NCBI GenBank assembly: GCA_028275105.1
Contig: JAQCNI010000046.1
Span: 1 to 48,909, forward strand
From: Halorubrum sp.
GTDB taxonomy: Archaea > Halobacteriota > Halobacteria > Halobacteriales > Haloferacaceae
DNA: 48,909 nt
Reading direction: 5' to 3'
Notes under the pieces: generated by a model
Databases searched by the model: none
The model's input: only the letters and a program-made list of their open reading frames with translations
What the model was told of the DNA's origin: nothing
Program-made: the position numbers and the translations under genes
In this document: positions 10,700 to 48,732 of the stretch, piece after piece
How positions within the stretch are numbered: the stretch's first letter is position 1
Layout of the letters: the number at the start of each line of letters is the position of its first letter

Positions 10700-10734
10700 C
10701 GGAACGAATCGCGATGTTTTCCGATCGGTGCGGT

Positions 10735-10987
10735 GGCGCGCTCCGGTGAGCGGGCCGAAGGCTCGTGAATCCGAGCGCGAGGGAGTCGCACGCGACGTGG
10801 GCGACCGACGGGAGCCCACAAGCGAGCGACGAGGCTGGGGAGGCGCGAGGCGTACGGCTGTGCGGGGTGGGACTCAAAGGGGCAGCTGCGAGGGCGGCGC
10901 AGGCGACGAAAGCACTGGACGGAGCGAACGAAGTGAGTGACTGAAGCGCGCATCGAGCGTGCGCCGCCCTCGCAGCTGGGGCTTTGG
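10735..10987 (+). repeat. dispersed structured repeat, copy A
   Basis: shares GGCGCGCTCCGGTGAGCG..., GAGGCTGGGGAGGC..., GGGGTGGGACTCAAAGGGGCAG and CTGGGGCTTTGG modules with 29635-29883(-) and 47489-47798; perfect 19-bp inverted repeat 10883-10901 / 10960-10978. Confidence 0.85.
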
Positions 10988-17799: not shown

Positions 17800-18163
17800 C
17801 GGACTGAGGGGAGTAAGCCCCCTTCGGTTCATCCCGACATTCGGCTGAGCGTCCGCGCCGTGGCCGGACTACCTGTCGCGCGGACTTGCACCGGCGAGGG
17901 TTCGCCGTTCCATCCGTTCCCACCCGTCGATCCTCATCGGGTTAACTCCCTTCCCTCACGGGTCGGTTCGCGCGTTCGCGGGTGCCCCCGCGAGCGCCGC
18001 GGTCACCGAGGCGACCGCGCGAATCACGGGTCGGGGCGGGGGGTGTCGTTGCTGTTCCAGAGCCAGCCGTCTCCGACTCCGGGCGTGTGCCCGGTCGCCC
18101 GTCCGGCCGGTGGGGGGACTTTCCTCATGCCGGAGGCACGGGAGTCGGGCTCCCTCTGTCCGA
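17800..18163 (-). ncRNA. rnpB: RNase P RNA (archaeal type A)
   Basis: minus-strand CR-I GCATGAGGAAAGTCCCCCCACC, CR-IV/V region GGTGCAAGTCCG...GACAGGTAGTCCGGCC, and ATGAACCGAAGGGGGCTTACT; 5' CGGACAGAGGGAG pairs with 3' CTCCCCTCAGTCCG (P1). Confidence 0.93.
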
Positions 18164-29532: not shown

Positions 29533-29642
29533 GAAGCCCCAGCCGCTCGGGACGATATCGTCGTTGTCGCTGAGACCACTCTCAAAGCCCCGGCCGCTCG
29601 GGACGATATCGTCGTTGCCGCTGAGACCACTCTCAAAGCCCC
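29533..29642. repeat. 51-bp direct repeat (2.2 copies) abutting the end of dispersed-repeat copy B
   Basis: aaagccccrgccgctcgggacgatatcgtcgttgycgctgagaccactctc at 29533, 29584; third start at 29635 runs into copy B. Confidence 0.85.
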
Positions 29643-29883
29643 AGCCGCGACGGCTCGGAGGCCTCGCTGTGGTCCTCAGTCGCTCACTTCGTTCGCTCCC
29701 TGCGGTCCTTGCGTCGGCCGCCGTCGCCCTCGCGGCTGCCCCTTTGAGTCCCACCCCGCGCTACGACCGCACCTCACGCCTCCCCAGCCTCGGCCTCGGC
29801 GACCCGCCGGAACCGCCGGCGGGCCGCCTCGACCTCCCTCGCGCTCGGGTTCGCGCCCTGCGGGGCGCTCACCGGAGCGCGCC
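29635..29883 (-). repeat. dispersed structured repeat, copy B
   Basis: reverse complement carries GGCGCGCTCCGGTGAGCG, GAGGCTGGGGAGGCGTGAGG, GCGGGGTGGGACTCAAAGGGGCAGCCGCGAGGG, GCTGGGGCTTT; stem 29730-29738 / 29642-29650. Confidence 0.82.
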
Positions 29884-29920
29884 GCAGCGATGGTCAAGTG
29901 AACGGTTCGGGGGGGGAACG

Positions 29921-33378: not shown

Positions 33379-33452
33379 GGGCTCGTGGTCTAGCTGGTTA
33401 TGACGCGGCCTTTACAAGGCTGAGGTCGGCGGTTCGAACCCGCCCGAGCCCA
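33379..33452 (+). tRNA. tRNA-Val (anticodon TAC)
   Basis: GGGCTCG acceptor pairs with CGAGCCC; anticodon loop CTTTACAAG; T-arm GGCGGTTCGAACCCGCC; discriminator A. Confidence 0.95.
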
Positions 33453-47409: not shown

Positions 47410-47488
47410 GCCCCATCAACGGTCCCCGAGACTGGCGTGACCGTCTTCGACCAGCGTCGTGGAAGGAACGATCGATCTGCCGTGCGGC

Positions 47489-47798
47489 GGCGCGCTCCCG
47501 CGAGCGCCCGTCAGGGCGCGAGACGGAGCGCGAGGGACGTCGCGAGCGACGTGGGCGACCGACGGGAGCCCACAAGCGCGCGACAGGGCGAGAGCAAAGC
47601 TCTCGCTTGCAACCGGCGCGTAGCGCCGGTGACGAGGCTGGGGAGGCGTGAGGCTGCGGTACTGTGCGGTCGGGGTGGGGCTCAAAGGGGCAGTCGCGAG
47701 GGGCGGCGCAGGCGACATAAGCACCGCAACGGGGGAGCGATAGCGACCGAGTGAGGAGCGCAGCGAGCGTGCGCCGCCCCTCGTGACTGGGGCTTTGG
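47489..47798 (+). repeat. dispersed structured repeat, copy C
   Basis: same modules as copies A/B; terminal stem 47691-47710 / 47770-47789, 20 bp including one G-U. Confidence 0.85.
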
Positions 47799-47957
47799 AG
47801 GCTTTTGAAATCAATGCGCTTTCGATATCGGAGAGTGTCATAGAACTATTCGCATGGATATTAGTTCACCTATAATATAGTGAATTACTCGTGAGAGCTT
47901 GCCTGCTTACTGACCACTTGGGTGCGTCTCAGTTGTAGTGAATTTTATTCTTCGAGT

Positions 47958-48100
47958 GAGCGTGTCGTAGAAGTCCTCACGTACGAACGGAGGTCTTTTC
48001 GGCTGTGTCTCGGATGATCGCTACAATCGCCAACTTTGAGCGGGGTGACGACCTGGGTCGTGAGAAGCGCAGGCTATGAGATGGATTCTATGACACGCTC
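47958..48100. mobile_element. putative MITE/IS remnant bounded by 15-bp terminal inverted repeats
   Basis: GAGCGTGTCGTAGAA (47958-47972) inverted against TTCTATGACACGCTC (48086-48100), 14/15; a related gagagtgtcatagaa lies at ~47832. Confidence 0.5.
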
Positions 48101-48123: not shown

Positions 48124-48732
48124 TCAAGCCGTGTACACATACCAACTACCATCATCCTGGAGCAGTATATACTCTTGTTTCCTTGACTCTCCTTCTTGAT
48201 TCCACGACACTAGAACAATAGCAAAGTCTTCGGCACCAGTTTCACTCACTATCGCCTCCATTGTTTGTTCAGATTTGTCAACTTCTTCTTGAACCTCTGT
48301 TTCATTTAAATTTGTGCCGTATTTTTTCTCAACTACCTCTCTTACTGAAACCCCATTGACCTCATTTAAGCTAATTTCCTCTTCAGCCGCCGTCAGATCC
48401 TCATGTGGATACATAGGCGATTCGGGATGTAGAACTGTATTCGCACCTTCCGTATCACCATTCTGTAATGCGGTTATATACTGTTCAAATATTTCCTCCG
48501 GGCTACCATCTGAACTGCCGGTGTCTCCACCGTCTGAACTGCCGGTGTCTCCACCGTCTGAACTGCTGGTGTCTTCACCATCTGAACTGCTGGTATCTTC
48601 ACCATCTGAACTGCTGGTGTCCCCACCATCTGAACTGCTGGTGTCCCCACCATCTGAACTATCAGCACAACCAGCAACAACGATTGTACTTACTGCTCCG
48701 ATTTCAGCCAGAAAATTACGTCGGCTTGCCAT
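48124..48732 (-). CDS. Tat-secreted lipoprotein with 8-aa tandem repeats (DUF4878-like fold possible)
   Basis: MASRRNFLAEIGAVSTIVVAGC lipobox with twin Arg; (SSSDGGDT)n; C-terminal NTF2-like pattern SPEEIFEQYITALQNGDTEGANTVLHPES...DDGSWYVYTA. Confidence 0.82.
   Translation of the reverse strand: MASRRNFLAEIGAVSTIVVAGCADSSDGGDTSSSDGGDTSSSDGEDTSSSDGEDTSSSDGGDTGSSDGGDTGSSDGSPEEIFEQYITALQNGDTEGANTVLHPESPMYPHEDLTAAEEEISLNEVNGVSVREVVEKKYGTNLNETEVQEEVDKSEQTMEAIVSETGAEDFAIVLVSWNQEGESRKQEYILLQDDGSWYVYTA

Follow-up and report, generated by a model that had tools for sequence, protein, structure and literature searches.

What does a short covarying stem in a Halorubrum contig report: an RNA made along with a neighboring gene, or some other folded molecule? 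The stem lies in three repeat copies (A, B and C) of the window, by which we mean the whole 48,909-nt stretch analyzed here (contig JAQCNI010000046.1). The first-pass annotation had taken the paired exchanges between these copies, together with a single G opposite T in copy C, as a sign of selection on an RNA whose transcription runs the same way as the upstream gene. Here we find that the stem belongs to a haloarchaeal repeat that is dispersed, non-coding and insertion-polymorphic, and whose plus strand keeps its fold as the sequence changes.

The stem belongs to a hairpin within a longer element

The stem sequences of all three copies are as annotated. In copy C, AGTCGCG (47692..47698, plus strand) faces CGTGACT (47782..47788, plus strand), and the only non-Watson-Crick pair is the reported wobble, G47696.T47784; copy A carries AGCTGCG at 10884 and CGCAGCT at 10971 on the plus strand, and copy B carries AGCCGCG at 29731 and CGCGGCT at 29643 on the minus strand. 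Because three copies by themselves are weak evidence, we extended the arm test to 128 copies, none of them chosen on their arms; they came from this genome, from its relatives and from a complete chromosome of the same genus (G027), of which the first 1.2 Mb were used. Over ten arm pairs, 92% of the cells were Watson-Crick, compared with 82.7% when the 3' arms were shuffled (maximum of 500 shuffles, 84.1%), so that covariation of the terminal stem was borne out, far above chance. Pair 3 was C-G in 76 copies, T-A in 26 and T.G in 26, with no C.A; in another 105 copies, retrieved with a pattern that fixed the 5' arm, these counts were 46, 35, 21 and 3 in the same order.

The reported stem forms the outer part of a hairpin of about 115 nt, P4 (47683..47797, plus strand; RNA z -7.1). 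Inward, the helix goes on into GAGGGGCGGCGCA/TGCGCCGCCCCTC, the inner stem, and an apical part with tandem G.A loops; outward, it is followed by a symmetrical GGG/GGG internal loop and then by CAAAG/CTTTG. P4 is in turn the 3' half of a longer element, which starts near 47484 in copy C and runs from P1 through the closing stem of P4 (47484..47797, plus strand), as defined by anchors common to the own-genome copies and copies in 35 other same-genus genomes. The copies share the order P1 (GGCGCGYGCC...GCRCGCGCGAGGGA), P2, GAGGCTGGGGAGGCGTGAGG, a low-complexity linker, GGGYGGGACT and P4, and the element is about 280-300 nt long in Halorubrum. In copy C, P1 is the hairpin GCGGCGGCGCG...GCGAGGG (47484..47536, plus strand); the P2 region (47537..47633, plus strand) holds one or more hypervariable hairpins, whose sequence varies from copy to copy while the ends remain complementary; and the conserved motif GAGGCTGGGGAGGCGTGAGG is exact at 47634..47653 (plus strand). 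Copy A occupies 10730..10987 on the plus strand (P4 at 10875-10987), and copy B occupies 29633..29888 on the minus strand (P4 at 29633-29746).

On the 3' side of P4 there is a unit of 51-57 nt starting with GGGGCTTTGG, which is degenerate in copy C (47789..47845, plus strand) and forms a tandem repeat of period 51-57 nt in several other copies. This unit consists of the closing-stem 3' arm, a small hairpin and often TTTATAA at position 47, and is repeated up to about five times (L034, L042, L029 and G027 copies); the distal 3' arms could compete with the proximal arm for one 5' arm. Other copies vary internally. In L005 (606-755), many copies of GCGGTCGCGGT make up an enlarged linker between P4 and the conserved motif, and perfect hairpins such as GTGGTTCGAAACGG...CGAACGACAGCG are nested within P4 at recurrent points (L268, L270; G062 C1 copies, block offsets 109647 and 117346), looking as if hairpins insert into hairpins. 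Directly 3' of copy C, positions 47831-48100 contain a second inverted repeat, GAGAGTGTCATAGAA / TTCTATGACACGCTC (15 nt, 93%), and GTGTCATRGA-like motifs lie near other element copies (L007, L029); therefore, the element may be accompanied by another small family of repeats.

The plus strand is the structured strand

Covariation was assessed on many copies with a home-made R-scape-type null, in which substitutions placed on a tree with Fitch ancestors were shuffled over columns, giving approximate E-values. P4 yielded ten significantly covarying pairs, all of them in the predicted structure, and P1 yielded three from 164 copies, again all within the predicted stem. Among 48 copies, 98.8% of the cells in the supported P4 helices pair, compared with 84.3% after shuffling (0 of 500 shuffles as high) and 28-44% after sliding, and 21 of the 29 P4 pairs show two-sided changes, these cells being not independent events because of shared descent and gene conversion. 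Covariation that supports a conserved structure, as expected of a structured non-coding RNA, is present.

The mismatches tell which strand folds. The wobble-type cells of the arm pairs in the 128 copies were 48 G.U against 6 A.C. The P4 helices contain 50 G.U and 12 A.C (binomial p 1.2e-6, not corrected for descent), and since C-to-T (4.7%) and G-to-A (4.6%) changes are about equally frequent at unpaired positions, strand-biased mutation fails to explain the G.U excess. Mismatches in P1 and P2 lean the same way (G.T 29.5, A.C 7.5; random windows, 32:32), and almost every 2x2 internal loop of P4 is GA/GA (148 such loops), kept on the same strand. A per-copy count in P4 based on Watson-Crick-only folding came out opposite, with A.C 41 against G.T 24.5; however, a context check traced nearly all of these mismatches to two positions where they recur, neither of them within the supported helices, and we therefore used the alignment-based count. 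Were one of the two positions (11 copies) scored as paired, the ratio would be about 50:23, with G.U still ahead. Taken with the absence of a mutation bias at unpaired positions, the G.U excess means that the structured strand is the plus strand of the element, as the annotation had deduced from a single wobble.

The fold is shared across Halobacteriales

A covariance model of P4 matched 128 of 196 Halobacteriales genomes, and 49 of the 66 genera sampled, with tens of copies in some genomes. Genera other than Halorubrum usually have another 5' half, often a second P4 placed head-to-head. Almost every copy there has an outer stem of its own, while GGGTGGGACTGAAAGGGGC, the inner motif and GGGGCTTTC are kept; GAGGCTGGGGAGGCGTGAGG recurs upstream of P4 copies of other genera (L371, L383). 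In these genera, 12 anchor-defined pairs are 93% Watson-Crick, compared with 18-20% when shifted by one, and 97.6% of the structure cells pair, compared with 71.2% after shuffling, in an alignment that was fitted to the model and so leans its way. Head-to-head pairs (L366, L367, L368, L376, L380) have matching inverted ends of 15-20 bp, which extend into sequence peculiar to each locus, such as GAACACCACGAAAGCCCC. Our literature search found no description of the element.

Copies are dispersed and their stems change as modules

BLAST with 136 bases located the element in at least 31 places of the own draft genome, and all 36 same-genus genomes first searched, own included, gave matches; among carriers with a name are many Halorubrum species and a single Halobellus. 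G027 has 62 copies in its first 1.2 Mb, 42 of them with all four anchors, which extrapolates to about 150 per chromosome. Copies are mostly between genes and non-coding. Plasmid records with the element are rare (2 and 4), and viruses nearly lack it (no phage record, one viral contig).

Site occupancy differs among species. Downstream of the phosphatase-like gene in the window, 2 of 30 species carry the element, and at the corresponding site of the copy A gene 6 of 30 do. Across a syntenic block from five related genomes, four or five species have certain sites in common, and other sites hold a copy in one species but none in the next. Copy identity is 74.3% both within and between genomes, so that no recent species-specific burst is seen. 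Comparison of filled and empty sites revealed no target duplication and no clean ends, the flanks being too diverged for base precision and the exact ends not fixed. We also rejected flanking direct repeats, as the similarity of 5' flank and 3' tail was 9.57 within a copy and 9.42 between copies, and replication-strand bias, as orientation along the G027 chromosome is even (30 to 32).

At shared sites, complete P2 and inner P4 stems differ from species to species, so that stems are replaced as modules, and the stem variant GGGAGG/CCTCCC recurs in several copies within one genome. Such replacement is faster than stepwise paired mutation suggests and, along with the recurrent variant and the locus-specific matching ends of paired inverted copies, it is what one would expect if the covariation came from mutation instead of function, with hairpin template switching and gene conversion making the arms perfect again. 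We consider this origin improbable, because it should neither spare G.U over A.C (50:12) nor leave the one-strand tandem G.A loops uncorrected and the GGG/GGG loop in place, and the unpaired control has no strand bias of mutation.

No mobilizing enzyme was found. Y1_Tnp had no match in the element-rich genomes G015, G019 and G028, which are complete, nor in G139 and G202, and was present in genomes without the element. Bacterial REP/BIME sequences with RAYT resemble the element in forming many intergenic palindromes per genome with a strand-specific hairpin, but the element is several times longer, its stems are hypervariable, and it shows no dependence on a RAYT or Y1 protein, a Y1-domain RAYT being missing from these element-rich genomes. 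The closer haloarchaeal parallel is the palindrome-associated transposable elements (PATEs) of Haloquadratum, which are likewise non-coding, palindromic and dispersed, with divergent copies and no clear target duplication (PMC3119063). PATEs carry palindromes near both ends and lack terminal inverted repeats; P1 and P4 lie near the ends of the element, as far as these can be fixed, and paired copies in other genera have inverted ends. Unlike PATEs, the Halorubrum element has a conserved multi-hairpin fold, shows no visible IS605 parent and persists without a Y1 transposase; on the distribution of Y1_Tnp, neither kinship with IS605-type transposons nor movement by Y1 is supported. It is therefore very unlikely that the element is of the PATE/REP type and moved by a RAYT-like IS200/IS605 Y1 transposase: this category is known in haloarchaea (PMC3119063), and the end palindromes, the lack of long terminal inverted repeats in the Halorubrum form and the lack of a clear target duplication fit it, but complete or near-complete genomes that abound in the element lack Y1_Tnp, and element-free ones have it.

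Loop types favor folded DNA over an RNA tied to the upstream gene

If the element were transcribed with the upstream gene, the two should share a strand. With genes called by a home-made gene finder, the upstream gene of the 62 G027 copies was on the element's strand in 33 cases and on the opposite strand in 29, and 30 copies from other genera had no upstream-strand preference either. As this orientation is random, a link to the upstream transcript is not supported. The downstream gene was convergent in 41 of the 62 copies and on the same strand in 21, and one copy in an annotated plasmid lies between two convergent genes, itself unannotated. Elsewhere in the window are an archaeal RNase P RNA (17802-18160, minus strand) and a tRNA (33379-33452), both above the Rfam gathering score, and an ORF (48124-48732, minus strand) with seven overlapping hits of a 24-nt tandem repeat at 48481-48696, in a Ser/Asp/Gly-rich stretch near the N-terminus.

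A G.T wobble is also stable in single-stranded DNA. Folded as RNA, a 121-nt region reaches -73.8 kcal/mol on the plus strand (z -7.1) and -60.3 on the minus strand, and with DNA folding parameters the plus strand is again favored (-39.2 versus -30.7 kcal/mol). At its apex, P4 has a GNA loop both in Halorubrum and elsewhere among the genera; 86 of 292 element hairpins end in a cGNAg triloop, compared with 22 of 3,074 hairpins elsewhere in the same genome, and GNRA accounts for only 1 of 53 tetraloops of element hairpins. RNA gains less stability than DNA from GNA/GNNA loops. Such loops closed by G-C pairs make extraordinarily stable DNA mini-hairpins (PMC4686876). The G-U pair thus diagnoses the strand and not the molecule, because G.T pairs in single-stranded DNA, DNA parameters favor the plus strand too, and the loops fit DNA mini-hairpins. 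Of the original proposal, the covariation and the strand preference stand, while an RNA that runs with the upstream gene does not follow. Loop types and predicted DNA folding favor a fold at the DNA level, short of proof, and the element hairpins resemble folded DNA more closely than they do an RNA produced along with the neighboring gene.

A structured non-coding RNA family, with its own promoter or made by read-through and selected for its RNA fold, is nevertheless a possibility that we regard as doubtful but worth weighing. It would account for strong covariation with conserved unpaired segments, for the tolerance of G.U and for a fold that persists throughout the order. The TTTATAA-like boxes found close to the 5' end of 24 of 58 copies also fit it; these boxes, however, mostly begin 9-21 nt ahead of the element, a spacing too short for an archaeal TATA box to direct initiation 5' of P1, and an identical box recurs in the 3' units, so that they were rejected as the element's own promoter. 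Random orientation to the upstream gene and the near absence of GNRA loops weigh against it as well, as do the Rfam 15 covariance models, which gave no family at gathering or relaxed threshold (best CRISPR-DR20, E 0.16, chance level). A precedent for transcription is a PATE of a Halorubrum virus and its host that is reportedly strongly transcribed (PMC10544981). We also rejected kinship with the 58-bp promoter repeats of halovirus HF2 (PMC8707807), as the motifs differ.

Discussion

We give a probability of about 0.5 to the reading that the element is an insertion-polymorphic structural DNA repeat whose plus strand folds and is handled by a putative machinery. The plus-strand fold would act as single-stranded DNA, in a cruciform or in a replication or recombination intermediate, and a structure-recognizing machinery of the host or of a mobile element would spread, exchange or maintain the copies, by analogy with REP, PATE and integron attC hairpins; a resident Y1 (IS200/IS605) transposase would not be required. 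Several observations count against this DNA-repeat reading. The unpaired motifs GAGGGA, GAGGCTGGGGAGGCGTGAGG and GGGYGGGACT are as RNA-like as DNA-like, GNA triloops are possible in RNA as well, and the chromosome lacks the orientation bias that a lagging-strand process might have given; the lack of a recent burst, target duplication, clean ends and a mobilizing enzyme counts in the same direction.

Two further classes bear comparison. Integron attC sites combine conserved ends and mismatches with a unique self-complementary stem in each copy, and only one strand folds; the element shares all of this, but its aligned ends show no GTTRRRY/RYYYAAC core sites and it forms no cassette arrays. MITEs are, like the element, short, dispersed and non-coding, and the head-to-head pairs of other genera resemble inverted repeats. 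Unlike MITEs, the Halorubrum form has unlike ends in place of terminal inverted repeats, and no target duplication was seen between its diverged flanks, while some paired copies elsewhere have inverted ends of 15-20 bp.

This element, unannotated and with one strand under strong structural constraint, makes up about 1.5% of the 1.2 Mb examined (62 copies of about 300 nt). Covariation tools do not separate RNA from folded DNA, and the element offers a clean natural case for asking which of the two covariation marks. Tentatively, and at somewhat less than even odds, it may represent an order-wide class of hairpin elements, each copy with its own stem but with common ends, mismatches and GNA loop, that would be read by shape on one strand, as single-stranded DNA, in an attC-like way by a putative archaeal system, or else an abundant, unrecognized class of non-coding RNA. 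The element points to a recombination or expression system that has so far not been reported from archaea.
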